Positions 1-31,490 of a DNA stretch of 39,455 nt are shown here, in pieces. The position numbers were made by a program, and so were the translations under genes. The stretch spans positions 1-39,455 of the IMG/VR virus record IMGVR_UViG_3300025141_000265, one strand, 5' to 3'. This DNA is from a virus. How positions within the stretch are numbered: position 1 is the first letter of the stretch; each line of letters begins with the position of its first letter. The notes below the pieces were generated by a model. It did not search any database. It was not told where the DNA came from and was given only the letters and a program-made list of their open reading frames with translations.

Positions 1-421
1 TAAGCCCTGTTTGGTTCTGCGCTAGCAGAATAAGGTGCCGCCGGCGCCGCAAGAGCCCTTGCACCTTCTTGCTGTCATTTTCATCTTCTACAGTTGCGCC
101 TGACGCTGCTGCAGCTTTAGCGGAGCGCGCGCGCTTCTTGTCGGCCATGGCTGCTTCATATTCTTCTCGCCATTCTTCAATAGACGGAATGAAGTAAGCC
201 TCGACGCCGAAAATCGGTTTAAAGTCTTTCCCCTCTGCCTGCATCTTCTTGGCATGCAGAACCTGCCCCGCTAGTCCGTTCATGTTTCCATGGTCCGTGA
301 GCGCTAACGCATCGCTCCCGTTCTCAAAAGCAAAGTCCATATGAGCATCGGGGTACCCGATTGCATCAAAGATAGATCCTGCCACACTGTGGGCGTGAAG
401 CCCTACGAATTTAATCGTCAT
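1..421 (-). CDS. dnaE: DNA polymerase III alpha subunit (DnaE-type), N-terminal part, cut by window edge
   Basis: This is the first 140 residues of a C-family replicative DNA polymerase; the 3' part lies beyond the left edge. The visible part is the PHP domain. It begins FVGLHAHS, with an intact His-x-His metal motif at residues 9-11, followed by ALTDHGNM (40-47), KPIFGVEAY (68-76) and HLILLAQN near the end, all in the family's order and spacing. E. coli DnaE has lost the first His of HxH; keeping both suggests a metal-binding PHP domain, possibly a proofreading exonuclease (inference). A lysine/alanine-rich insert (about residues 92-123) separates the last two motifs. The ATG at 421 overlaps the end of the upstream gene by 11 bases, so translation is probably coupled. 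Together with the family A polymerase at 11.1-12.3 kb the phage carries two unrelated polymerases. Confidence 0.85.
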   Translation of the reverse strand, partial: MTIKFVGLHAHSVAGSIFDAIGYPDAHMDFAFENGSDALALTDHGNMNGLAGQVLHAKKMQAEGKDFKPIFGVEAYFIPSIEEWREEYEAAMADKKRARSAKAAAASGATVEDENDSKKVQGLLRRRRHLILLAQNQTGL

Positions 422-1313
422 CTATTTCTCCCTCTCTATATGGTAATTTAACATGTGTGTGCGCCTTTGTCAAGCTATTTGTCGGCTTTTGTATGAAGTT
501 TTCTGAACCCATAAAAGCTTGATATTCCTCCCACTGTGCGATATCATAATGCCAGTCAATTGTTTCTTTATGGGCATTTTTTTCAGACACCTTCTCGAAG
601 ACTGTGGCTAAATCAAAGTTCCGGGCAGACCAGCGTTCTGCCAAGGGCAGCTTTTGAGTGGGGTACTTTTCGTGAGGCTCAGGATTTATATATTCCCGAG
701 TTGTAATTTTATTAACATGGCGACGGCATTGAATAAAGTCCTCTCCCAACATCGTAAACGCTAAAGGCTTATTATCCTTTATAGTTTTGCCCTCGTGCAT
801 CAAAAAAAAGTTATTTTCAAAATCTGAAATTTTGGGCCGCAAATTTTTTAGGGCATATACGTTATAGGCGCTCATGGGAAAGGCCACAAAATACTTCTGG
901 GGCACCATCCAATGGGAAATAATATTGGCTACGCGCCATGCGGAGTTGATTCCATAAAGCACTGACCATCCGTAGGAATCCCGGCGGTCGCGATCTTTCG
1001 GGTGAACAGGGACATAATAGATTGGAATCTCTTTGCGATTTTCACTGGGATACATTTCATGTTGGCGACAATAGTGAACAGGATCGTATGTCCATTCACC
1101 CACTACTTTTTTGACGATGGGCGCAAGGTCATCATTAGCCACAATCCATATGGTTTGACATCCTGCCATCGCACACTCAAAGACAGCTTTTTGGATGGCA
1201 GTAAAGCCAGGATCCACGGGTAGCAGACAATCGGACACCGGCAATCCTAACTCGGTGCTCAAGTTGGCTAAGGGGATGATCCCGGCTACATGAAGATGTC
1301 TACCATTACTCAT
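411..1313 (-). CDS. Nucleotidyltransferase-like protein (GT-A/sugar nucleotidyltransferase fold suspected)
   Basis: A 300-residue protein. Its N-terminal third looks like a nucleotidyltransferase Rossmann-type fold: AGIIPLA near the start, then VDPGFTAIQKAVFECAMAG, QTIWIVANDD, and later YFVAFPMSAYNVY and FFLMHEGKTI. These resemble the way NTP-sugar transferases lay out the nucleotide-binding sheet, but the usual GxGxRxxPxTxxxPK signature is absent, so activity is uncertain. I chose ATG 1313 because it overlaps the upstream stop as ATGA and follows an AGAGAG ribosome-binding sequence; an earlier in-frame start at 1346 would add 11 residues inside the upstream gene. It lies between an unknown gene and dnaE. 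A role in modifying nucleotides, DNA or a glycan is conceivable; none is shown. Confidence 0.6.
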   Translation of the reverse strand: MSNGRHLHVAGIIPLANLSTELGLPVSDCLLPVDPGFTAIQKAVFECAMAGCQTIWIVANDDLAPIVKKVVGEWTYDPVHYCRQHEMYPSENRKEIPIYYVPVHPKDRDRRDSYGWSVLYGINSAWRVANIISHWMVPQKYFVAFPMSAYNVYALKNLRPKISDFENNFFLMHEGKTIKDNKPLAFTMLGEDFIQCRRHVNKITTREYINPEPHEKYPTQKLPLAERWSARNFDLATVFEKVSEKNAHKETIDWHYDIAQWEEYQAFMGSENFIQKPTNSLTKAHTHVKLPYREGEIDDD

Positions 1314-2191
1314 AATCTCTCTAGAAGTCGATGGTATCCCACGCAAGCTGCCGGCAAATCTTGAAGCAAATCCTCGTGCGTAACTTGCGGAATCTCGACC
1401 GATGCGAGGGTGGGACGTGGGTGTGTCGGTTTCTTGCTTGTCTCGCGGCCGATGATAGCAGTTCTAAAATTATAATATTTCGGATTACCTGTGGGTGAAT
1501 AGCCATTAAACGGTCCTCTCATTCCTCTATCGCGCATCTCTGCTATCATCTTAAATCTCGCCATGGTTTGAGAATAATCAAAATCCAATAGCTGTTCTTT
1601 GGTGAGCGTAGAGACTACGCAAGCATCCTTGACAGGAGAGTTGCCATCAACGCGATCTGTAGGGTAAAACCACATTTGCTTAGCAAAATTATCTGGCGTT
1701 TCAATGAGATCGATTTCATGCTTGCCTCCGCGATTGAATGCTATCCAATCATAACACATGTAACGGGGGTTCGCAAGTGCTTTTTCTCCTACCAGTCCCA
1801 CACAGTTCAGGTCTCCAAAATAATAAGCTTGTTCAAACTTAACCGACGCAATTTTCGAATACTCGTTCGCACAAATCAGATTCTCCCCATTGTGGCGTAT
1901 GCTCTCACACAGATTACTCAAGGGGGCCCGGCCAGAAAGGGCTATTAAAAACATGAGGCGATCCCAGATGAGGGCCTCAGAGGCTCCAACCTTAATATTT
2001 CCCTTGTGAGTGATAAGCTCGCGAGCCTCGCTCTCTAAGTGCAAGGGGGAAAGATCCAGTTCACTATCACAGTAGTCAAAGCGAAAAGGCCGTTGGGGTC
2101 GGGTGTAGAAAATGGGCAATTTATTAGTGAACGCATATAAAACTGCAGTTAAATTGCTCCCGATTACTATTTCTTCATATTCATGAATCAT
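1310..2191 (-). CDS. Protein of unknown function paired with the nucleotidyltransferase-like gene
   Basis: About 293 residues from ATG 2191. Not recognised. The start YEEIVIGSNLTAVLYAF resembles the first strand and glycine turn of a dinucleotide-binding fold (compare VIGSGxxG of flavoproteins), but it lacks a full GxGxxG and no second FAD or NAD motif is visible. The rest is a mixed globular protein with no signal peptide or membrane segment. It ends in an ATGA overlap with the next gene and itself overlaps the endolysin stop by 11 bases (ATGATTCATGA), so the three are probably co-translated. A GTG at 2224, preceded by an AGGAAGAGA-like ribosome site, would add 11 residues and cannot be excluded; I prefer the ATG because the predicted first beta strand then lies at the N-terminus. 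Confidence 0.6.
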   Translation of the reverse strand: MIHEYEEIVIGSNLTAVLYAFTNKLPIFYTRPQRPFRFDYCDSELDLSPLHLESEARELITHKGNIKVGASEALIWDRLMFLIALSGRAPLSNLCESIRHNGENLICANEYSKIASVKFEQAYYFGDLNCVGLVGEKALANPRYMCYDWIAFNRGGKHEIDLIETPDNFAKQMWFYPTDRVDGNSPVKDACVVSTLTKEQLLDFDYSQTMARFKMIAEMRDRGMRGPFNGYSPTGNPKYYNFRTAIIGRETSKKPTHPRPTLASVEIPQVTHEDLLQDLPAACVGYHRLLERL

Positions 2192-3137
2192 CTTCGCAGA
2201 CGTCGCTAGCCTGACTGTAGCCACTCTCTTCCTCTTCTTCTACTTCTTCGAGCAGGGATTTGATATCTAAACCCGCACAATCAATCTTATTTTTGGAAAC
2301 GTGATAATGACTTACAAACCCTTTAAAATCTCCGTACTTAACTTCTTGAGCGTAATGAGTATCAGTATTGCCAAATTGATTCAGGGGCGCCTGATAGGGT
2401 AGGCCTAGGCCAGTGTGGATCGCTTTCCATAACTGTTTGAGGGCGCGGAGTTGAACTGGGTAGAAACCCAAAAAGTCATCAAGGTCTTCTCCGTGACACC
2501 GGATGTTTGTCATCAGGGGCCGTTCGCCATGGCCATTGCGTATATACCATTCTTGATACTTGGGATAATAAGCATTGGAAATCTCCACCCCTACCGATGC
2601 ACGATTAGCCCGTTCGCTGCCAGCGTGCCAGCAGCCATGCTGCATATCAATCGTCTGGTAAATGGTGCCATCATTATCAATAAGAAAGTGCACTGAAATT
2701 CCCCGGTTATCTAAAACCTTTTGGCAGGCGGATGAATTCAAGCACACGTCCCAGTGGTTTACAAAATAACGAATGGAGCGCGCGGGGCGGCCTGTATAGT
2801 CGTAGTGAGTGCCGGCATTAGCCTTGAGGCCTCCCTTCTCGGACCAGAGCACTACCTTATCCCATTCGATAGGAATAAAATTCCCATTGTATACAATATA
2901 GTTAGAATAGGTAGGATCTTCCGGTTTGTGTTCGTCGATATCGGCTTGCCGTTCGGTCCAGACACGACGAAAAGTCATGGGACCTACTAGTCCATCCGCC
3001 GAGAGGCCGCGGCCACGCTGCCACTTTTTAACTGCTCTTACTAATTTGTCGTCAAAATATTTCTCACCGAACCAACTGGGATCCCATCCCAAATTAGCAG
3101 CGGACGACTGATTATAAAAGTTTTTATCGATTGGCAT
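2181..3137 (-). CDS. Endolysin: N-acetylmuramoyl-L-alanine amidase with peptidoglycan-binding domain
   Basis: Predicted lysis enzyme that cuts the amide bond between MurNAc and the stem peptide. Residues about 25-62 (FDDKLVRAVKKWQRGRGL, then SADGLVGPMTFRRVW) form a PG_binding_1 domain. Residues about 120-290 form an Amidase_2 domain, with probable zinc ligands H128 (FVNHWD), H277 (VSHYHVS) and C287 (KIDCAG), and the typical WHAG and VGVEISN segments between. There is no signal peptide, so a holin or similar export is expected; none was recognised in the window. The last 25 residues are very acidic (EEVEEEEE), an unusual tail. The ATG at 3137 lies 16 bases after the co-chaperonin stop and is preceded by ACAGGAAAA. 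Confidence 0.88.
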   Translation of the reverse strand: MPIDKNFYNQSSAANLGWDPSWFGEKYFDDKLVRAVKKWQRGRGLSADGLVGPMTFRRVWTERQADIDEHKPEDPTYSNYIVYNGNFIPIEWDKVVLWSEKGGLKANAGTHYDYTGRPARSIRYFVNHWDVCLNSSACQKVLDNRGISVHFLIDNDGTIYQTIDMQHGCWHAGSERANRASVGVEISNAYYPKYQEWYIRNGHGERPLMTNIRCHGEDLDDFLGFYPVQLRALKQLWKAIHTGLGLPYQAPLNQFGNTDTHYAQEVKYGDFKGFVSHYHVSKNKIDCAGLDIKSLLEEVEEEEESGYSQASDVCEDDS

Positions 3138-5413: not shown

Positions 5414-6790
5414 TTATTTCCTTTTTAACTTGGTATATTTCTGACGCAACAATTCTTGTTGCTGTTTGACGCCCAGTGCCACAGGGCTTGTCGCTACTCC
5501 TGTAGCCATTGTTGGCATCTGTGCTTTCGGAAGAATCTGAATCTTGACGTTTGAAGTATCCATAAAGATAGGATAAATAATACCGTCTGGGCCGTTGCGG
5601 TTCTTGGCAATAAAGATTTTCCCTTGGTTGTTCTGCTTGTCTTCAATCGTGCGAGAGATCGAAAAGATAAAGTCAGCGACGAAACACTTGTTAAAGGCTT
5701 CGGAGATCTGCTCCATCGTAATGACTTCGGCGTTAAGACCCGAACGATTAGTCTGTGAAGCTGTCCAAATCGGACACTTATATTCTGTGGAGAGAGCACG
5801 AAGTTCCTCGTAAATTGATTCCAGTTCGTTGCGCTTCTCTTTGCGCACGATGACCGGCTTAAGAAGATCCGCATAGTCTACAATGATAAGTCCGGGTTTA
5901 ATATCTCTTTTGATAAGGCGCGCAAGATGGGAGCGTATAGTATTAGTCGTAGCTGATTTGGTCGGATACTCCTTGACGATCAGCGCGCCATCAAGCTCTT
6001 TGATCTCTTCATAGATATCATCTTTAAAATTACGGATATCAGTGAGCGGATAGCCAGTAATACAGCTATCATAGCGTGTTCCGATGACGGTGTCCTGTAA
6101 CTCTAAGGTATAATGAACGACAGTCTTCCCTTCTTTGATGGCCTGGGATCCTAAATGAACCAAGGCCATTGACTTGCCCGCGCCTGTGGGGGCGATGACC
6201 ACGCCCAACTCACTCTTGCCCAAGCCACCGCCAGTAATGGTGTCAATCTCTTTCCACCCAGTAGTAACCGGAGCACGGTGCTTAAGTTTAAAACGCTCCT
6301 CAAAGTCGGCGAGATAATCATAACCAAAGTTGTTCTCGGAGCCGAGCTTAAGCGCATCATTAATGACAGTAGAGATCTCGTCAAAGGAGCAGTTCTGTAA
6401 AAGCCCTACTGATTTCATCATGGCTTCTTTGAGATTTTGCTTCCGACAAAAATCTAGGGAAGTTTCTTTAATATACTCGATGTCAGACATTTCACGAGTA
6501 TGGATACGAGCAAAATATTCTCGCACTTGATTCTGAAGAACCTCATCTTCTGCGTCCATCTCAGTACGAAGAATCGTGAGCATTGCTTGAACCGATGGGT
6601 GAGTCCCGTACTTGGTTCGATAATCCATGACTTTGGAAACAAATGCTCGTAAATATTCAAGCTCAAGGAACTGCGTATCGAGTACTTCCGTAATCTGATC
6701 CGCGAACGGTCTGTCTTCAAAAATAAGTTGTACTAGTCCCTCTTGGAAGGCTTTCCCGTACCTTCCAAAATTCACATTTTCAGTGAGCAT
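5414..6790 (-). CDS. Replicative DNA helicase, DnaB/T4 gp41 type
   Basis: Hexameric 5'-3' helicase that unwinds DNA at the phage fork. Residues 1-150 are an alpha-helical N-terminal domain; the RecA-like motor follows. TGWKEIDTITGGGLGKSELGVV (177-198) leads into Walker A APTGAGKS (200-207), a catalytic Glu in HYTLELQ (about residue 230), Walker B LIIVDYADLL (301-310), and the ASQTNRSG glutamine motif. The 458-residue length fits gp41/DnaB. No primase domain is fused and no separate primase is in the window. Its ATG follows GAGAGGG, and a sigma70-type promoter (TTGACT, 16 bases, TATACT) lies 27-54 bases upstream. The gene probably heads a helicase-reductase-co-chaperonin-endolysin transcript. 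Confidence 0.92.
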   Translation of the reverse strand: MLTENVNFGRYGKAFQEGLVQLIFEDRPFADQITEVLDTQFLELEYLRAFVSKVMDYRTKYGTHPSVQAMLTILRTEMDAEDEVLQNQVREYFARIHTREMSDIEYIKETSLDFCRKQNLKEAMMKSVGLLQNCSFDEISTVINDALKLGSENNFGYDYLADFEERFKLKHRAPVTTGWKEIDTITGGGLGKSELGVVIAPTGAGKSMALVHLGSQAIKEGKTVVHYTLELQDTVIGTRYDSCITGYPLTDIRNFKDDIYEEIKELDGALIVKEYPTKSATTNTIRSHLARLIKRDIKPGLIIVDYADLLKPVIVRKEKRNELESIYEELRALSTEYKCPIWTASQTNRSGLNAEVITMEQISEAFNKCFVADFIFSISRTIEDKQNNQGKIFIAKNRNGPDGIIYPIFMDTSNVKIQILPKAQMPTMATGVATSPVALGVKQQQELLRQKYTKLKRK

Positions 6791-6851: not shown

Positions 6852-7832
6852 TTAAAATATTTCTTTATTGATGTCAACACAGTCCTTGTTAATCTTGTTT
6901 AAGTTCTCCTTAAGAACCTCCCAATTTAACTCCCCGAATCCATCAGCCCGCATCATCCCAATGATCTCGGTTTTATTAAATTCGCACTCAAAGTTTTCAA
7001 TAGTGTGTTGAACGTGTTGTTTAGATTGTACTGACATCTGCGGAGCATATAATTGCATCATCTTATAGTTGTGTTCGATGAGGCTTTGGTTGTCGCTGAT
7101 GTTAGTAAAAAATTTAAGCTTGGCTTTACTCTTGCCACAATATTCCACCACTTCATCAATGGTGTAGGATTTGCTGTCCTTCAAAAAGTTTAATCTTTTA
7201 CTGACTGTCGCCAACCCGGCGCCTTGGATGCCGGGCAGGTTGTCCGATGCATCGCCGGCAATGGCGCGAGCGAGAGCCATGTTGGTGGGATGGATGCCGG
7301 TCTGCTCAATGATACGTGATTTGTTAAGTAGCTCGTTCTTAGTAGGACGAAGCAATACTGTTTCATCATCGCATAGCTGCATAAAGTCCCGATCATTAGA
7401 AATAATAATCTTCTGCCATCCCTTGTAGTGATGCATATGTGTAAGGTGCGCGATCACATCATCAGCCTCGATCTCTGGGATCATAAACTGGACGATGGGC
7501 ATTTGATTGAAGTACTCAATAACGCGGCTCTGTTGCCACATCTTGTTGTACAACTCTTCATCATCCGTCAGATTATGAAACGCTCGATTTAACCTAATCG
7601 GCTTTCGTCCCGCTTTATAATTTTTATCCGCGCTCTTCCGCTTTTTCGATCCGTTAGGTCCATCCCACACAATCACAATTTGATCCGGTTTAGTCTCTCG
7701 CACATGCCGCTGCAAGATTTTAATGAACCCTTTGATCCCTCCAATGGGATCCCCATTAGTGGATATACTTGGGTCTACGATGTATGCTCTCAAATAGGCA
7801 TTCAACGCGTCAATAATCAATACTCTCTTCAT
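6852..7832 (-). CDS. 5'-3' exonuclease / flap nuclease (Pol I N-terminal domain, T4 Rnh family)
   Basis: Removes RNA primers and 5' flaps during lagging-strand synthesis. The 326-residue protein starts MKRVLIIDALNAYLRAY with the first metal aspartate (D8), then IVIVWDGPNGSKKR, the EIEADDVIA acidic cluster, SNDRDFMQL, and AIAGDASDNLPGIQGAG, which combines acidic metal ligands with the helix-hairpin-helix DNA clamp. This order and spacing is typical of phage stand-alone exonucleases. It complements the family A polymerase, which lacks any such domain. The ATG at 7832 follows a strong AGGAGGGG site, and a near-consensus sigma70 promoter lies just upstream. Confidence 0.92.
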   Translation of the reverse strand: MKRVLIIDALNAYLRAYIVDPSISTNGDPIGGIKGFIKILQRHVRETKPDQIVIVWDGPNGSKKRKSADKNYKAGRKPIRLNRAFHNLTDDEELYNKMWQQSRVIEYFNQMPIVQFMIPEIEADDVIAHLTHMHHYKGWQKIIISNDRDFMQLCDDETVLLRPTKNELLNKSRIIEQTGIHPTNMALARAIAGDASDNLPGIQGAGLATVSKRLNFLKDSKSYTIDEVVEYCGKSKAKLKFFTNISDNQSLIEHNYKMMQLYAPQMSVQSKQHVQHTIENFECEFNKTEIIGMMRADGFGELNWEVLKENLNKINKDCVDINKEIF

Positions 7833-7894: not shown

Positions 7895-8209
7895 TTAACG
7901 ATATCTGCGTGGGGGTGGCGCCGGCCGGCCGCGGCCTTTGACCTGCCGGACGTAAGTATGCGGATGGCGATTAACCATGTGACGCGGCACTGTACGCAAC
8001 TCCCAATAACCATGAGCCCAGCCGTAACGCGTCTGATGGCCTTTGACCCATACCCAAGCTTTAACTTTCACAGGTTTGGCTTGTGGTGGGGGCGGGCGCA
8101 CGGCCGGCGGTGCTGGCCGGTGAACTGCATGGGGTGCGGGGTGCGGGTGTGCATGCACGCTGCATCCACTTGCAAGTAATGCCCCTATCGTAATAATTAT
8201 TGTTTTCAT
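7895..8209 (-). CDS. Small His/Pro-rich lipoprotein with WVWVKGH..GYW motif
   Basis: A 104-residue protein with a clear lipoprotein signal: MKTIIITIGALLASGC, that is two-residue basic start, hydrophobic core and lipobox LASGC with Cys16 as the acylated residue. The mature part begins with a His/Ala/Pro-rich linker (residues 17-48), then VKAWVWVKGHQTRYGWAHGYW, resembling the YxWGxW repeats of bacterial envelope lipoproteins, and a basic Pro/Arg tail ending PAPPPRRYR. Start ATG 8209 has a GGAGAGAGA site; a longer in-frame reading from 8299 overlaps recA and is rejected. The stretch is visibly richer in G+C than its neighbours, suggesting acquisition. Possible roles are outer-membrane spanin (Rz1-like proteins are small proline-rich lipoproteins) or superinfection exclusion; neither is proven. 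Confidence 0.75.
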   Translation of the reverse strand: MKTIIITIGALLASGCSVHAHPHPAPHAVHRPAPPAVRPPPPQAKPVKVKAWVWVKGHQTRYGWAHGYWELRTVPRHMVNRHPHTYVRQVKGRGRPAPPPRRYR

Positions 8210-8219
8210 TTTCTCTCTC

Positions 8220-9377
8220 CTAAACTGGGTGATGGGCGGCTGGGGTTTCATCTTCTTCTTCATCATAGAAATCCGCTGCTGCTCCGTCACGTTGGTCAAA
8301 CCGTTGAATTACTTCTTCATCCATTAGACGGGTGACGTGGTCTTTAAATTCACTGTCGGAGTGAATAATCTCGGCCCACTTAGAAGGCTGGAACTTTTTA
8401 GTGTATCCGTCCTTAGTGGCCAAAGTATACCATGCACCTTTAGCTGTGAGATACTCCGACCCTTTGATGGCATCAAACCAGCTTTCCTCGTCGCGGATGC
8501 CAACTTCGTCAGTACCCCACATAATGCGGAAAGCACAGTTTCTACCCTGAGTTCCAAAGCGCGACTTCTCTAGTCTCACCTTAACTTCAGATCCAATACG
8601 AAACCCTTTATCGTCCAGCACAAACGCACTCTTGGCTTTGCGTCCCGTGAGCCAGATGCGCAGCGAATAAGAATAGTGCATAGCCTTTCCGCCGGGTGTC
8701 ATATAGGGGGTGGTCATGGCTGTGATGTGAGCCATAGGTCCACTAGTAATGTTAGTCTTAAGCTGGTTAAGAACCAAGAAGGTTGCTTGCTTGTCTGCAA
8801 TAGGGAGCGTCAGCTTTGACATCCCCTTTGCAAGAATGCGAGCCTTCATTGCCATCGAAGATTGAGGATTAAAATCCCCTTCTACATCGGAGACTGCAGG
8901 AGTAAAGGCCAGCGAATCCCAGATGAGCAGCAGCTTTTCGTCAGTTGCTCCCAAGAGTTCCTCAATCGTTTCTAAAACAAACTCGACAGAGGATGCTTGA
9001 ATGTACATTAGACGCTCTAAATCGCACCCTGCTGCTTCCAAAAAAGCAGGGTCGATGGCAGACTCGGAATCAAAATATACGACGAGCTTGCCTTGTTTTT
9101 GGGCGTTGGCTGCAATCTGCGCGGCCATGTAAGACTTGCCTGTGGATGTAAGTCCGGCGATCTCTGTAACTTTGCCGACAGGAATGCCGCCAATGTGTCC
9201 TTTACATATAATACTGTCAAGCCAACGCGATCCTGTCGGGATCCATTCCTTAACTTCCGTGGGGTTGTCCCCGGTTAAATCATGCGCAACGTTACGTCCC
9301 GCTTTCTTGTTTACTAAGGTCATGAGATCTTGCATAGATACACGACCAACCTTGGTTTCTTTTGCCTTTCTGGGCAT
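8220..9377 (-). CDS. RecA/UvsX-like recombinase
   Basis: Forms filaments on ssDNA and catalyses strand exchange for recombination-dependent replication and repair. The 385-residue protein has Walker A GLTSTGKS (75-82), the YFDSESAID segment (101-109) with the catalytic-type Glu105, Walker B LLLIWDSLAF (149-158), and FLVLNQLKTNI matching the L2-preceding strand. MTTPYMTPGGKAMHYSYSLRI matches the RecA TPGGxALxxxxSxR block. A C-terminal acidic segment (YDEEEDETPAAHHPV) ends it. The ATG at 9377 has an AAGGAAGG site. It follows the ssDNA-binding gene, and the pairing matches T4 UvsX-gp32 partnership. I do not assign uvsX as a symbol because the similarity could equally be to bacterial RecA. Confidence 0.9.
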   Translation of the reverse strand: MPRKAKETKVGRVSMQDLMTLVNKKAGRNVAHDLTGDNPTEVKEWIPTGSRWLDSIICKGHIGGIPVGKVTEIAGLTSTGKSYMAAQIAANAQKQGKLVVYFDSESAIDPAFLEAAGCDLERLMYIQASSVEFVLETIEELLGATDEKLLLIWDSLAFTPAVSDVEGDFNPQSSMAMKARILAKGMSKLTLPIADKQATFLVLNQLKTNITSGPMAHITAMTTPYMTPGGKAMHYSYSLRIWLTGRKAKSAFVLDDKGFRIGSEVKVRLEKSRFGTQGRNCAFRIMWGTDEVGIRDEESWFDAIKGSEYLTAKGAWYTLATKDGYTKKFQPSKWAEIIHSDSEFKDHVTRLMDEEVIQRFDQRDGAAADFYDEEEDETPAAHHPV

Positions 9378-9441: not shown

Positions 9442-10209
9442 CTAGCCTGCTACCAGTTCATTAAATGCACGGTCGACGTCAGTAGTTTCGGTTGTGCTGT
9501 ACTTGGCAGTCTCGCGCGAGCGTGACTCAGCGGATCCGTCTCCGGCAAGTTGCTCATCGAGAATAGCGTCTACCTGTTCCGGAGTCAGTCTTTCAAACAG
9601 ACTATCGAAGTCAGGCATACCATCAAGGAGGGCGGGGATGGCTTCAGTATCCTCAAGCAAAGTTGAGGTGTTACGACGCATTTTCAGGCTCGTCTGGGGG
9701 TATGCACCGGGTTTGGTGGGTTTGGTATAGGTGAGAGTCATATCAGTACCCTCAGTGCTATCCGTAATATCACCATACTCGGGGTCAAGGATGTAGCCGA
9801 GAAGGAGTTCATAGGCCGTCTTACCGTAGCCGTAAACCTTAATTCCTTCATCTTCTCGACCACGAACAACTACGGGGCTGAAATAGCGGGTGCGCACAAA
9901 GAGTGACTTTGCAAGCTTTTTGCTCTCCTCGTCGTTGTTATCGCTTCCTTCTCGCCAAAGCGAAGAAGCGAATTCGCAGATAGGACATGCCTCACTAAAA
10001 TTACGCTTAGGACACAAGATTCCGCCCCTGTGGTCCCCTACGTTATAATGAAAGAACATTTCCTTCAGTGGATCTCCGTCGTTAGTTGGAATGATCCGAA
10101 TGTCGGTGTCTCCCTCGTCTGGTTTGAACCAAACAGAGTTAGAATCACCTTTGTTTTCACCGCGCAAAGTTGCGAGCTTGCGGCGCATAAGCTCCATATC
10201 AATTGACAT
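9442..10209 (-). CDS. Single-stranded DNA-binding protein, T4 gp32 type
   Basis: Coats ssDNA at the fork and organises helicase, polymerase and recombinase. The 255-residue protein begins with a basic helix (LMRRKLATLRGENKG) like the gp32 N-terminal cooperativity segment. HYNVGDHRGGILCPKRN and ACPICEF give a zinc site of one His (H54 or H60) and Cys66, Cys75, Cys78, the H-C-C-C arrangement of gp32. The OB-fold core follows (RIIPTNDGD, KSLFVRTRYFSPVVV, IKVYGYGKTAYELLLGYI). The C-terminal 60 residues are acidic and Ser/Thr-rich, as expected for a partner-binding tail. A sigma70-type promoter stands directly upstream, fitting its need in large amounts. Confidence 0.9.
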   Translation of the reverse strand: MSIDMELMRRKLATLRGENKGDSNSVWFKPDEGDTDIRIIPTNDGDPLKEMFFHYNVGDHRGGILCPKRNFSEACPICEFASSLWREGSDNNDEESKKLAKSLFVRTRYFSPVVVRGREDEGIKVYGYGKTAYELLLGYILDPEYGDITDSTEGTDMTLTYTKPTKPGAYPQTSLKMRRNTSTLLEDTEAIPALLDGMPDFDSLFERLTPEQVDAILDEQLAGDGSAESRSRETAKYSTTETTDVDRAFNELVAG

Positions 10210-10235: not shown

Positions 10236-10264
10236 AGTATAACACACTCAGCTTTAAGAGTCAA
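10236..10264 (-). promoter_or_regulatory. Sigma70-type promoter before ssDNA-binding protein gene
   Basis: TTGACT (10264-10259), 17 bases, TATACT (10241-10236) on the minus strand. The -35 overlaps the last codons of the tubulin-like gene. The leader contains AGGAG before ATG 10209. It shares the TGTGTTATAYT core with the exonuclease promoter. Confidence 0.72.
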
Positions 10265-11102
10265 GTGTTTCATGTTGTTGTACTACGTTAGTATGGGCAA
10301 CGCAGAACCCAAAGTCTTCATGCTCGGTTTCATATATGGCATATGAAATCTTGCGATAGGCATTTTTTGGCTTTTCTTTTAGCATAGTGACTAACTTTTT
10401 GTGCAACCCTCCTTCGGTCGCTAATTTTTTCTCGTTTATACATATATAATAACCTACTTCGCGAGGGTTGTCAAGCTCAAAAAACCATTTTTCTTCAAGA
10501 TTTTTTATATCTAAGATTCCCAAGCTTCGAATACGATTAACTTCGGCCGGCTTGGCAACTTGGCCAATCTCTGGGTCACTAAATTCAAAATAATTAAGAT
10601 AGTGAATGGTGGAGAAAATTCGTTCATTCAACGTATCATAGTAAGTCTTAATAGGGATCTCATGCAACGTCTTTTCCATGTCAGCATTAGAGATTAAAGT
10701 AATGGTCTTAAACAGGCCAGAGCGCGCGTACTCCTGGAGAACACTAAACGCTATTCTCTCTAGGGCCAGCGGCGTATCCGTAAGCAGTTCTACATCTGGA
10801 CGCATATAAAAGAGATCGATATCCTTTTCTTTCAATTGTTCTAAAATTCCTAGTACATAATTCGAACTCATGGCCGAACCCATTACAAACACTTGAACGC
10901 GGGGGCGTATGCCTTCAAAGAAGGTGTCCAGAGAAGGAATGTTTTGTTCATATTCCTCGGGCGTAGCGAAGGTTTCTAATTTATATTGCTTCTTTCCTGT
11001 CCGCACCGCATCGTTCAACAGATAGACATCGTAGTTGGTGATAGCACCAAACTTTTGAGCTACTGCTGAGCCGGCTGTTCCAATTCCTACTACCGAAATC
11101 AC
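10254..11102 (-). CDS. Divergent tubulin/FtsZ-like protein (putative)
   Basis: A 282-residue protein whose layout follows the FtsZ/tubulin fold. MISVVGIGTAGSAVAQ (1-16) matches the first strand and T1 loop (GxGGAGxN). VQVFVMGSAMSSNYVLGILEQL (69-90) lies where FtsZ has its strand, GGGTGTG loop and helix. IDLFYMRPDVEL matches the VVTxPF strand, LALERIAFSVLQEYARS the helix, ITLISNADME (134-143) the IPND strand, and KTYYDTLNERIFSTIHYL the NxxL helix. The C-terminal part (GYYICINEKKL, ISYAIYETEHEDFGFCVAHT) resembles the FtsZ second domain. The glycine-rich nucleotide loop is replaced by MGSAMSS, so GTPase activity is doubtful. GTG 11102 has an AGGAG site and overlaps the polymerase stop (GTGA). 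No database check was possible; the fold is inferred from pattern. Confidence 0.55.
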   Translation of the reverse strand: MISVVGIGTAGSAVAQKFGAITNYDVYLLNDAVRTGKKQYKLETFATPEEYEQNIPSLDTFFEGIRPRVQVFVMGSAMSSNYVLGILEQLKEKDIDLFYMRPDVELLTDTPLALERIAFSVLQEYARSGLFKTITLISNADMEKTLHEIPIKTYYDTLNERIFSTIHYLNYFEFSDPEIGQVAKPAEVNRIRSLGILDIKNLEEKWFFELDNPREVGYYICINEKKLATEGGLHKKLVTMLKEKPKNAYRKISYAIYETEHEDFGFCVAHTNVVQQHETLDS

Positions 11103-12283
11103 AGTTTTAACTCCTTTAATTCTAGATAATTAGGACCACACATAAGATTCACTAAAAACGTATCTAATTTATTCATCGCAAACAACTCCTTAATCTCGGG
11201 TACCAAATGACGCTCGTCGTCTGCTAGATCGATGACTATTTCATCATGTACGATATGAGAAATAAACGAGCGGTGCTCCTCCAAAAAGCGATCTAATACT
11301 ACGGCCCGGTCTAAGACCAAATCTGCCGTCGTACTCTGTATAAGATAATTCAATGCTTTGGGTTTGTCAACTCTTATTTTGCGTTTGAAAGGGGTGTGGA
11401 TATATTCTCCATCATACCACTGATCAAGGACCTGGGTGCGATGATAGGATTCGAAATCCGCATTGTCGGACCGATAATTGTAGAGCCATGCAAAAAATTG
11501 AATCTTAGCGTCTTCACGACTTAACTCTTCTTGAATGAGGTTCTTGATATGCCACTGATGAACATCTTCTTGGGGCTGTTCTTCGTCAGCTAAGGCAATA
11601 AACGTTCTCACTTCGGCACCATTATAATCAAGCGAGAGAAACCATTCGTTATGCGGCTTTACAAGCTGTCTAAAATCTTTTTGCAGGGTAAGCATCGGGA
11701 AAGAATTTTGCGTCGTCGTGAGGCGCCCTGTGACAGTCCCAAAAAGGTTATAGTCAATATGGCCCGGGCCCTTTAAAAGCTTGTTGGCGCGCGCGGCGTT
11801 TATTGAGGAGTAATACAATGGCCGGCATCCTTCATTAGTGAGGTGCAGATTTTGCTGGCCAATCTTATGTAGAAGGCGGTGCACTGCATCGAGGTGATCA
11901 TAATACGACGGCTTCTCGTGGGTGTCAAAAACGTGTTGAGTAATTTGATTTTTAATCTCACAGAACTCTTTAAGAAAATCTTGAGGCACCAAATCAAAAA
12001 TACAATGCTCGCGCATGTCTACTTTGGCTAATTGAAAAGACTTCAAATATGCTTTCAACCGACGCTGGGCTTTCTCCAGCTTAGGAAGTAGTTGGCTAGG
12101 GCACACCACGTCTAGAGGCTGCCCTTCACAAAACAAATATGCATAATAAGGTTGCATATCTTTAAGAGATCCGGTATGCTTCCAAGTATGGGTTAGCTCG
12201 GAGGGAAAGTCCTCAAAGTAAAGCTTACCATCTCCATAGATTCCAATACATTCTGATTTGTCGTCAATAGCCTGAAATATCAT
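11099..12283 (-). CDS. polA: Family A DNA polymerase, short form lacking exonuclease domains
   Basis: About 394 residues, containing the complete palm-fingers core: TGRLTTTQNSFPML (185-198), motif A LSLDYNGAEVRTF (217-229), motif B RxxxKxxxFxxxY as R256, K260, F264, Y268 (REDAKIQFFAWLYN, with Asn replacing the usual Gly), a helix-Q-like ALNYLIQSTTAD (310-321), and motif C IVHDEIVIDL (344-353). The N-terminal 150 residues are too short for a DEDD 3'-5' exonuclease, and none of its motifs are visible; the 5'-3' nuclease is separate at 6.9 kb. The residue at the E. coli 762 position is Phe, the form associated in marine viruses with fast, virulent replication. ATG 12283 is preferred; ATG 12316 would add 11 residues overlapping the upstream gene. 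Confidence 0.88.
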   Translation of the reverse strand: MIFQAIDDKSECIGIYGDGKLYFEDFPSELTHTWKHTGSLKDMQPYYAYLFCEGQPLDVVCPSQLLPKLEKAQRRLKAYLKSFQLAKVDMREHCIFDLVPQDFLKEFCEIKNQITQHVFDTHEKPSYYDHLDAVHRLLHKIGQQNLHLTNEGCRPLYYSSINAARANKLLKGPGHIDYNLFGTVTGRLTTTQNSFPMLTLQKDFRQLVKPHNEWFLSLDYNGAEVRTFIALADEEQPQEDVHQWHIKNLIQEELSREDAKIQFFAWLYNYRSDNADFESYHRTQVLDQWYDGEYIHTPFKRKIRVDKPKALNYLIQSTTADLVLDRAVVLDRFLEEHRSFISHIVHDEIVIDLADDERHLVPEIKELFAMNKLDTFLVNLMCGPNYLELKELKL

Positions 12284-13574
12284 TGTCTGAATCGTCGTCC
12301 ATCGCTGCCGCAGCATCGTTACTCTTCTTAATATAACTCAAAGAGCCGCGATAGTCAAATGGTTTATTGATAATTCTTTCAAATATGTACAGGGCATCAT
12401 GAGTTCCTTTTTGCGCTGCGATTTCCAGACAGTCATCTATAAGGATAGCCTGTTCGTGTGGAGGCGGAATAACTTCCTGTTCTAATAATCTTAATTCACA
12501 ATACAGCCTCAAAAAATAGTCCGAGGAATATTGGTCAGTTAGTTGTTCTTTCGTGTAAGTCTCGGGACTAATAATCTCGGTGATTTCTTCGCAAGCCGTA
12601 GGAGCGTCATAGCGCGGAGAGGGCCCTAAACCGGCCTCGGGCCACAAGCGGCCGCGGGTATATTTTTTAACAAATTTGCGAACTTTCACCCGATTATACA
12701 ATTGCAGCAATAAATATTTAAATTCATTATAGTTGTCTGTATAAGCCGGCGCAAATCCACGGCGGAGCGTCATGGCGCGACTAGAGAGGCCATAGGGGGC
12801 GCCATATTCATTCATGATGGGGGAGTCAATGTCGGCTACTAAGCGCCATGGCAGACGGGTGTCTATCATAAATCCATAAGCATTGCAGGCATTAACAAAG
12901 AAGAACCAGTTAGGGTTGCTTCCAAATTGTTTCCATTTTTCTTCATCATTAGATGGAGAGAGATCCGCAATTTCTACTACTAACCCGGATACTGTCACGG
13001 GGCAGTGGCGACTTCGTATATATCCCGGGAGCGTCAAGGGATAAGTGAGAATGCCTCGTCGCAGATATACCAGGAGGTGTTGGATAAAGTGATCGAAATT
13101 CTCTACTTTAACGCTATCCGCCACAAACTGTTCGCCTACTACTTGAAAATAATCTGTCAGATATGCCATATAGAGACTTTGGGGGCTCTCATAACCTTTA
13201 TAAATTTTTAAATTGCTTAAAAAGGGATCATCGGCTGTTATTTTTCCGTTCTGTGCGCACCATTGGAGATGGGTAGCTAATGCTTCAAACGCATCCACTA
13301 CAAACGGGAGCCCACTCATCGTGCCCCGATTGACCCGGGTGGGATTATACGTCTTCATTTGCACTCCCGGACCATAGCGGCTTTTTAAAGTGGTAAAAGG
13401 AATTACCGGCACATTAAACTGATCAACGCGACCATACCAATATTTCTCTCCAAAATTAAAATCTACCAAATTGATTATCTGACCCTCACCGGGGGTGCCG
13501 CTGAGATCATAATTAATACGCTTATCGTATAGCTCAATTAAGGACGTTTCTTTATTATCTACAAATTTAGCCAT
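12264..13574 (-). CDS. Conserved-looking protein of unknown function between baseplate and replication genes
   Basis: A 436-residue soluble protein, not recognised. It has no signal peptide or membrane segment. Visible features are an aromatic-rich start (FNFGEKYWYGRVDQF), a central block NPNWFFFVNACNAYGFMIDTRLPWRLVADIDSP that looks like a conserved core, and an acidic C-terminus (DDDSDNDISGY). The ATG at 13574 has a good AGGAG site three bases after the giant baseplate-region gene, so it belongs to that transcript, and its end overlaps the polymerase gene. The context allows a virion (baseplate or injected) protein, but it could also act in replication. No function is claimed. Confidence 0.6.
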   Translation of the reverse strand: MAKFVDNKETSLIELYDKRINYDLSGTPGEGQIINLVDFNFGEKYWYGRVDQFNVPVIPFTTLKSRYGPGVQMKTYNPTRVNRGTMSGLPFVVDAFEALATHLQWCAQNGKITADDPFLSNLKIYKGYESPQSLYMAYLTDYFQVVGEQFVADSVKVENFDHFIQHLLVYLRRGILTYPLTLPGYIRSRHCPVTVSGLVVEIADLSPSNDEEKWKQFGSNPNWFFFVNACNAYGFMIDTRLPWRLVADIDSPIMNEYGAPYGLSSRAMTLRRGFAPAYTDNYNEFKYLLLQLYNRVKVRKFVKKYTRGRLWPEAGLGPSPRYDAPTACEEITEIISPETYTKEQLTDQYSSDYFLRLYCELRLLEQEVIPPPHEQAILIDDCLEIAAQKGTHDALYIFERIINKPFDYRGSLSYIKKSNDAAAAMDDDSDNDISGY

Positions 13575-29675: not shown

Positions 29676-31490
29676 TCAGGCGCCGCTCTGACCAAGGAGT
29701 CCCTCGACGATAACGAGACCGTACATATCGGGACGCACCATCTTCTTGGCGTACCGAGTCATCACGCCCTTGCGGGGCACGAAGTCTTCAGGGCCAAAGA
29801 TAGTGGGAGTAGTCTGCAGTGGTACGTAAGGAGCGTACACGTATCCGCTTTCAAGGAAAGAGGAACCGCGACGTCCAACGAGGACTACAGTCCGTGGGAA
29901 GTACGGGTCTACATAGACATCGAACTTCTTGGAGAGACTACCCACCTTCACAGCACCAGCCGTACCACGGTCACCGTCAGCGGTAACATTGGCACGGAAA
30001 CCAGCGGTGAACTCCAGGATGTTGGCAACTTCAGGTCCACAGACGATGAAGTTAGCGCCACCACGCAGAGTCTTGCGGTGGATTTGTGCAGAGACGTCAT
30101 TGACAGTCTCGATGAGGGTCTCATACCACTCACTCACAGTACCGGTGAAGTCAGGAGCCTTGGCAGATGCGCCAATTTCCTGTCCGGTGGTCCGGTTCAC
30201 GAAGAGACCGGGAGAGCGAGACCAGTAATAAGTACCAGCCTTGGCACCCACAATGAGATCTTCAAGAATTTCTTGATCAATCTCAAGAGCAATCTGCTCA
30301 GAGAGAATCGAGGTCAATTCAACCTCTGCATCAAGGTTGTGGTATGCGTTAAGATCTTGTCCTAACTCAGGGGTCCACTTAGCCTTGAGCTTCTTGCTCT
30401 TCGCTGTGATTGCCACGGAATCGACCTTGATGTCGATTTCGGGGATGCGCTCGTTGTTTTCCAAGCCCCATACGGTCGTACCAATAACGGAACCGAGAGC
30501 AGCACTGCCGCTAAAGTTATCGTTAATGGGGAACGTGAGGTTCAGGTTTTGAGCGGCACCAGTAAGAGCGCTCAACAAGGAGCCGTTGCTTGCTCCGTCA
30601 AAGAGAGGTACCGAACCACTCCTGTTGACGAAAACCAGATTCACCTTCCAGTTGGCAGTTCCGGGATCTTCCGAAGTAGAACCTGAACTTAAACTCGAAC
30701 AACGACGCACCAAGGTGGCGGCGTTCTCAATTGCCGTATCACTCGTAGTGAGCTTCTGGATGGCTACCAAGTTTTCGGTATTAAGCTGCTCCAAGTTACC
30801 GTTACCGGAACCTGTTAACTCAATGACCACAGCGGACGATCCAGAAAGATCCGGATCGTAGTTACACAAACCATCCAACGTTGCTTGGTTAGCAGCGTTG
30901 AGAGGGTTAGGACCTGCGCCAACAGCAGCACCCACAGTACCAGATGAAACCAGTACCAGCGCACTGCACGCGATACCCGTAGCCGAACCAGTCGGAGATG
31001 CATAACCGTTGTTGAGCGCATAAGGCCCAGCTTCAGCATTCGTACCTGTCAAGGTTACACCACCCGTGATCTGGGAACCAATGCGCCCACCACCATAGAG
31101 TGATTCTTCTGTTGCGCCATAGCCCAACCGCGGAAGTCCTGCGCCGTTACCCGACGTAGTGAAATCCAAGAAGAAGATGAGACCCGAGGGGAGACTCATC
31201 GGTTGAACACTAACAAGATCGTTAGCAATCAAACCCGCGAAAACACGACGGACGATGGGGAATGCGACGGCCGCGAAGCCCTCAACATCTCCACCGGACA
31301 TCGTAGATGCCTCACGGAGAAGCTCTTTTGCTTGGTTCTCAAGCAGCCGAGCCATAGCATTGCGGTGACGCTCATTTCCGAGACCTTCAAGAAGTCCCGT
31401 GCGTTCCCACTTTTCTAATAATGCGTGCCCTTCGGCGCGCATGTCACGATTGATAACACCTTCGGTCAATCGTTCAATAATACCAGCCAT
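29676..31490 (-). CDS. Major capsid protein (T4 gp23-like, HK97 fold)
   Basis: A 604-residue protein forming the head shell. The start LENQAKELLREASTMSGGDV, FAAVAFPIVRRVFAGLIAND and LVSVQPMSLPSGLIFFLDF are hallmarks of gp23 proteins. The end DPYFPRTVVLVGRRGSSFLE, SGYVYAPYVPLQTTPTIFGP, EDFVPRKGVMTRYAKKMVRP is equally typical. The first 60 residues probably hold the scaffold-side segment removed by a prohead protease (outside this window). A region of about 250 residues (130-380) is Gly/Ser/Thr/Ala-rich and longer than in T4, probably an outward insertion. The ATG at 31490 has the strongest ribosome site in the window, AGGAGGT. The GroES-like gene at 3.2 kb is its probable folding helper. Confidence 0.95.
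   Translation of the reverse strand: MAGIIERLTEGVINRDMRAEGHALLEKWERTGLLEGLGNERHRNAMARLLENQAKELLREASTMSGGDVEGFAAVAFPIVRRVFAGLIANDLVSVQPMSLPSGLIFFLDFTTSGNGAGLPRLGYGATEESLYGGGRIGSQITGGVTLTGTNAEAGPYALNNGYASPTGSATGIACSALVLVSSGTVGAAVGAGPNPLNAANQATLDGLCNYDPDLSGSSAVVIELTGSGNGNLEQLNTENLVAIQKLTTSDTAIENAATLVRRCSSLSSGSTSEDPGTANWKVNLVFVNRSGSVPLFDGASNGSLLSALTGAAQNLNLTFPINDNFSGSAALGSVIGTTVWGLENNERIPEIDIKVDSVAITAKSKKLKAKWTPELGQDLNAYHNLDAEVELTSILSEQIALEIDQEILEDLIVGAKAGTYYWSRSPGLFVNRTTGQEIGASAKAPDFTGTVSEWYETLIETVNDVSAQIHRKTLRGGANFIVCGPEVANILEFTAGFRANVTADGDRGTAGAVKVGSLSKKFDVYVDPYFPRTVVLVGRRGSSFLESGYVYAPYVPLQTTPTIFGPEDFVPRKGVMTRYAKKMVRPDMYGLVIVEGLLGQSGA

Follow-up and report, generated by a model that had tools for sequence, protein, structure and literature searches.

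The window, the 39,455-nucleotide stretch of viral DNA analysed here, carries a minus-strand replication block. A short-form family A DNA polymerase (11099..12316; phrog_17, E 1.4e-18) is followed by a gene for a short tubulin-like protein, hereafter the short tubulin (10254..11102), and then by genes for an ssDNA-binding protein (SSB; 9442..10209; phrog_1192, E 3e-24), a UvsX/RecA-like recombinase (8220..9377; phrog_97, E 2e-61), a 5'-3' exonuclease (6852..7832; phrog_107, E 3e-27) and a DnaB-like replicative helicase (5414..6790; phrog_19, E 9e-73). The order polymerase, short tubulin, SSB and RecA (then exonuclease, DnaB and RNR) is kept across the 126 loci first collected, and loci that lack one of these genes are apparently short fragments. 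The window also encodes a T4-type major head protein (29676..31490, minus strand; phrog_138, E 2e-72) whose best isolate matches are Flavobacterium phage immuto, Microcystis phage Mel-JY01 and RM378, which places the virus among T4-related phages, near the Far-T4 group.

Read in reverse, positions 10254-11102 form an unbroken 282-residue open reading frame with a GTG start, and the plus strand of the same interval is riddled with stop codons. A preliminary description of the window had given these coordinates and this length exactly; the gene lies on the minus strand. Its start codon overlaps the polymerase stop codon (GTGA in the window, ATGA in most relatives), so that the translational coupling proposed in that description holds in the window and beyond it, as does, from the gene order across loci, the neighbouring ssDNA-binding gene. 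The assigned start is supported by the invariance of M1 and I2 in 68 representative sequences. Values of dN/dS between 0.03 and 0.14 (median 0.059) reveal strong purifying selection and thus a functional protein. The short tubulin gene is real and not a chance reading frame.

The polymerase and the short tubulin evolve at equal rates, with mean distances of 0.64 each (SSB, 0.27; RecA, 0.26), and the correlation between the distances of these two is the strongest seen (r 0.835, partial 0.42), which may reflect linkage only. Of the 405-residue polymerase itself, only the C-terminal polymerase part was recognised. The window genes scanned include no recognisable separate proofreading exonuclease, and the genes of the replication block no recognisable clamp.

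Several other features of the region deserve mention. Between SSB and RecA lies a cargo hotspot, which holds 2-4 kb of varying genes in relatives (L008:6664-9449, L060:6693-9971, L455:8720-10999), by eye including Dam-like methyltransferase, ParB-like and GHKL-ATPase-like genes, and is nearly empty in the window. Overlapping the end of the RecA gene, 7895-8299 (minus strand) encodes a small protein rich in His and Pro that begins like a lipoprotein, has YxWxxGxW-like repeats and is 50-64% conserved in some relatives. Beside the endolysin gene, 411-2224 (minus strand) holds two overlapping reading frames (311 and 304 residues) with no significant Pfam or PHROG match.

Predicted fold and altered motifs of the short tubulin

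At least 493 IMG/VR stretches encode relatives of the short tubulin, from which 214 full-length sequences were gathered and 68 taken as representatives (pairwise identity down to 43%). Hundreds of uncultured T4-related phages carry the gene directly behind that of the DNA polymerase. Sequence searches with the protein gave zero Pfam matches at E 10 (PF00091 included, and no Pfam tubulin match in its own record either), no PHROG family, no tblastn match in 50,697 phage records and chance matches only in the PDB. Two narrow patterns scanned against 85,000 cellular species, each represented by a single genome, found no cellular relative, which is weak evidence of absence. By these searches the short tubulin appears to differ from all known tubulin families and to be missed by sequence libraries, in keeping with its earlier characterisation as divergent.

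An AlphaFold2 model built on 39 sequences (the window protein and relatives; mean pLDDT 88.6, pTM 0.88) predicts a two-domain tubulin/FtsZ fold with a central helix H7. A Foldseek search of the PDB with this model returned 733 matches under 1e-3, of which the best 50 are all FtsZ or TubZ; the top matches have a probability of 1.00, E-values from 8e-13 (about 1e-12) and TM-scores of about 0.6-0.7. VIA-align scored CetZ highest (Z 23.6), followed by TubZ (22.8) and Aquifex FtsZ (21.3), with coverage of residues 1-282 and 261-273 residues aligned. In a viral structure library the best matches are phage proteins annotated as FtsZ or cell division. The model and both structural comparisons confirm the tubulin/FtsZ fold first proposed from the window alone, and the structure prediction and fold search suggested at that time returned the tubulin superfamily over the full length. 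The profile search suggested alongside them yielded local matches only, to a T6-H7 segment of FtsZ (hhalign, E 0.06) and to 43 residues of phiKZ PhuZ before and including T4.

A different Rossmann family was considered and ruled out, since the PDB matches listed by Foldseek and VIA-align all belong to the tubulin superfamily and are full-length. Nucleotide-sugar epimerases in the viral library aligned with the short tubulin over ~160 columns at weak E-values. An uncultured phage protein already named FtsZ, UniProt A0A6J5RW92, is the viral structure nearest to both the short tubulin and the second tubulin described below. As to ftsZ genes in phage records, the one record opened (L212, CAKLQH020000013.1) carries ftsA-ftsZ-lpxC and looks like a bacterial chromosome; other such matches may likewise be cellular, and ftsZ from phage-collection records served here only as FtsZ sequences.

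The elements of the model, assigned by order, run S1-H1-S2-S3, an H2 stub, S4-H4-S5-H5-S6-H6-H7, S7, a short hairpin and S8-H10-S9-S10. Helices H3, H8 and H9 are absent from it; the canonical phage tubulin, as modelled, has all three. The motifs first noticed in the window are found at residues 6-13 (GIGTAGSA), 74-80 (MGSAMSS) and 137-142 (ISNADM), and the long H7-like helix (residues 151-173) and C-terminal beta-alpha domain listed with them are present in the model. Across the 68 representatives, M1, I2, G6, G8, G75, P102, D103, N139 and N159 are invariant.

These positions outline a nucleotide pocket that seems conserved on one side and eroded on the other. At the start of the T1 loop (residues 6-8, GxG; 11079..11087, minus strand, as for all motifs here), both glycines are invariant, and other residues stand in place of the remaining FtsZ GGGGN stretch. 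T3 reads PEEYExNIP in place of the Gly/Lys motif (DGxxK....G in the canonical tubulin). The T4 equivalent (residues 75-83, GSAMSSNYV; 10854..10880), which follows strand S4 in the model and aligns locally with PhuZ T4, is mostly G-S-S-x-S-S-N-Y, with G75 as its sole invariant position in the 68 sequences; the glycine-rich box is lost, against GGGGGTGS in the canonical tubulin. The T7 region (residues 174-190; 10533..10583) contains no invariant acid by column counts (E178 is present in 52 of 68) and no helix H8 by DSSP of the model, compared with FDxKDLE in the canonical tubulin. By contrast with these losses, T5 retains an invariant P102-D103, and the T6 SNxxxE segment (residues 138-143; 10674..10691), which hhalign pairs with FtsZ IPND, keeps S138, N139 and E143 in all 68 sequences. 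The start of H7 (residues 151-159, IKTYYDTLN; 10626..10652), placed by the model, the profile alignment and column counts, has invariant K152 and N159 and a 97% conserved Y154. The base-contacting asparagines are thus kept in 68 of 68 sequences (N139 in T6, N159 in H7), in an alignment to FtsZ positions that is local only.

The preliminary description had held that phage tubulins need an intact GGGTGTG loop and that the altered loop marks a non-hydrolysing protein. The first claim is wrong: the 68 short tubulins do not carry a GGGTGTG-type T4 signature, but phiKZ PhuZ also deviates (GGASGST), and PhuZ forms filaments, with catalysis by T7 and a competent GTPase site (PMC3678025). Because PhuZ deviates as well, the T4 loop alone has no force as proof of lost hydrolysis. 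The second claim is better argued from the missing T7 acids and H8. Together, the motifs suggest a pocket that might still bind a guanine nucleotide but lacks the machinery for the phosphates and for activation. Its model and its motifs mark the short tubulin as a degenerate, truncated member of the tubulin superfamily in T4-related (Far-T4-like) phages.

A canonical tubulin in the same genomes

A PF00091 search of long contigs identified a canonical tubulin of about 380 residues in the three longest contigs that bear the short tubulin. One copy per genome, of 375-380 residues, lies at G001:9066-10193, G003:20976-22088 and G029:111917-113029 (L217:1042-2184:-, L219:1318-2445:+, L454:6915-8042). 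The protein meets or exceeds the Pfam PF00091 cut-off and all its GTPase motifs are intact (T1 GVGGGG, T3 DGxxK, T4 GGGGGTGS, T6 DNE, T7 FDxKDLE), with D262, D265 and E267 invariant. It has a long, acidic, disordered N-tail with a DFDF-type motif, and its model is closest to TubZ (Z 33.2), then CetZ2 (Z 32.7). Most relatives retrieved with the L217 query show 88-96% identity, PHROG matches are weak (phrog_4733 PhuZ, E 0.001), and the gene, like that of the short tubulin, is under strong purifying selection. An SbcCD-like gene lies upstream of it, and the terminase and portal genes follow after about 4.5 kb (names assigned from sequence).

The same genomes encode both proteins. The canonical tubulin is encoded on all 12 contigs that carry the short gene and also cover the site 38-42 kb upstream of it. 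The two genes are 37.6-42.0 kb apart and in the same orientation in 11 of these contigs; in G001 the distance comes to about 42 kb only when measured across the ends of the record, which would then have to be circularly permuted. Nine of the 12 were found by the canonical gene search, and two of those nine (G011 and G012) seem to represent a single virus. The short gene led only to G001-G003 and to the cut-off G007, which carries the short gene and begins inside the canonical gene. A further 21 contigs with the short tubulin only end before the canonical site and include no counter-example. Two candidate counter-examples among them, G047 and G051 (40.8 and 41.0 kb upstream with no canonical gene), were rejected, as synteny places the ends of both contigs before the locus. 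The window has 28.4 kb upstream of the short gene, short of the 38-42 kb needed, so its canonical partner is expected outside the window.

A sister lineage (G031, 235 kb, and relatives) contains the canonical tubulin and no detectable short one. The 68-sequence profile matched no hidden short tubulin there, and the slot between polymerase and SSB holds other genes: an HD-type phosphohydrolase (phrog_28876, E 4e-6; L451:5029-5619:+, L452:5712-6314:+) directly behind the polymerase, and another gene. The idea that the short tubulin is a recent duplicate of the canonical one finds no support in their profile alignment, which is local (hhalign E 0.0025).

Possible roles of the short tubulin

We tentatively favour, at somewhat short of even confidence, a reading in which the short tubulin, made with the polymerase, does not hydrolyse GTP and serves the canonical phage tubulin as a partner that caps, nucleates or anchors the filament at replicating DNA. 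The protein keeps the tubulin fold and that side of the pocket which faces the guanine base, and appears to have lost the parts needed to split GTP and activate a neighbouring subunit (the T4 glycine box, the T3 Gly/Lys, the T7 acids, H8 and also H9). Coupled translation within the operon yields it along with the DNA polymerase, so that a cap or anchor would arise at the place and time of phage DNA replication. A subunit with a conserved pocket face and no activating bottom face could sit at a filament end or hold the filament with no hydrolysis triggered, and might thereby cap, nucleate or anchor the canonical filament at replicating phage DNA. This scheme presumes that the short tubulin binds nucleotide without hydrolysing it, that it contacts the canonical tubulin as well as the polymerase or SSB, and that it has an anchoring role, all of which we infer. 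For such a partnership speak the fold, the degeneration measured against the canonical protein, the invariant base-side residues, the coupling to the polymerase, the pairing on all 12 contigs that cover the site, the purifying selection on both genes, and the equal rates and correlated distances of polymerase and short tubulin. Against it, the distance correlation may stem from linkage, most of the paired contigs were found by way of the canonical gene, the two tubulin genes are not adjacent and their profiles reveal no special kinship (the alignment cited above), and the sister lineage, which keeps the canonical tubulin alone, indicates that the canonical protein does not strictly need the short one.

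The strongest rival, which we regard as doubtful, is a polymerase accessory factor that has a tubulin fold and no cytoskeletal role, binds guanine nucleotide or nothing, and acts in the replisome, for example in processivity or in polymerase-SSB contact. The stop/start overlap with the polymerase gene in relatives, the adjacent SSB, the distance correlation, the short-form polymerase with no clamp recognised in its block and the sister lineage with only a canonical tubulin would all suit such a factor. However, the HD-type phosphohydrolase in the same slot of the sister lineage implies that something other than a polymerase subunit can occupy it, a second tubulin is encoded by the genomes, and we know of no polymerase factor with a tubulin fold.

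The preliminary description had also suggested host FtsZ as a target, and a tubulin fold without an activating face could dock on FtsZ ends and block division of the infected cell. Phage FtsZ inhibitors exist. Yet the short tubulin is made with replication proteins and not in a host-takeover block, and it has no sequence affinity to FtsZ outside T6/H7. The canonical tubulin, which lies outside the window and was missed in that description, is available in the same genomes and is therefore the most likely partner, which makes the FtsZ reading improbable. Least probable of all is a self-polymerising, working GTPase of a new type that moves phage DNA or capsids alone, as PhuZ might suggest, since PhuZ without GGGTGTG still forms filaments and has a competent GTPase site (PMC3678025). 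The conserved pocket residues and E178 in 52 of 68 sequences would fit an independent GTPase, but the T7 region has no invariant acid, H8 and H9 are absent, and the genomes already have a complete tubulin.

The partnership reading can be extended to a two-tubulin cytoskeleton in which a dynamic TubZ/CetZ-like filament is capped or anchored on the replisome by a catalytically dead pseudo-tubulin, in abundant T4-related phages without sign of a phage nucleus. We consider this extension possible and hold it less firmly than the partnership itself. The co-occurrence of a short and a normal-looking tubulin nonetheless points to a viral cytoskeleton of two parts with a link to DNA replication. As far as we found, it would be the first replisome-linked tubulin and the first case of a phage with two tubulins of divided roles. 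Whatever its role, the family was missed by sequence libraries, spans hundreds of contigs, and is fixed beside the polymerase and paired with a complete tubulin in phages that gave no chimallin match in the six genomes searched. Should the pairing be functional, it would offer a minimal system for studying how a filament attaches to replicating DNA and how tubulin families evolve non-hydrolysing partners.

Comparison with known tubulin systems

The phage tubulins known to us, also from the reviews consulted, are GTPases that occur singly: PhuZ in jumbo phages that form a nucleus, and TubZ in the partition system of c-st. The tubulin superfamily is familiar. The literature searched, which covered few subscription papers and no preprints, contains no description of the short subfamily, of its coupling to the polymerase or of a genome with two tubulins, so that an earlier description elsewhere is possible. 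Neither the Far-T4 virome paper (PMC4360716) nor the pelagimyophage paper (PMC7029224) mentions tubulin or FtsZ.

The Far-T4 phages RM378, immuto and Mel-JY01 have head proteins related to that of the window virus, and neither tubulin was detected in them with either profile; two huge phages with similar head proteins also gave no match to either profile. The immuto block runs polymerase-x-SSB-RecA-exonuclease-DnaB-RNR, with two other small genes, unrelated to the short tubulin, between polymerase and SSB. In immuto and Mel-JY01, a small unknown protein with a conserved ILVHRKKESNTxYTIN motif follows the polymerase (L129:1346-1801:+, L128:7813-8256:+).

PhuZ of the phiKZ-like nucleus-forming phages shares the tubulin fold and a deviant T4 with the short tubulin and differs from it as a filament former with T7 catalysis (PMC3678025). 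The gene order at the phiKZ PhuZ locus is also unlike that around the short tubulin, a difference already pointed out in the preliminary description. Phages of that kind also encode chimallin, the shell protein; a query with phiKZ gp54 (chimallin) matched nothing in six genomes of the group, in a sequence search that could miss a distant homologue. CetZ, TubZ and FtsZ have the same fold at about 9-15% identity, and differ in that the short tubulin is without H8, H9 and the catalytic motifs. TubZ partition systems have an adjacent tubR DNA-binding gene and a centromere; the immediate neighbours of the short tubulin are the polymerase and SSB genes. The canonical tubulin of these phages belongs to the same superfamily as the short one and is encoded in the same genomes.
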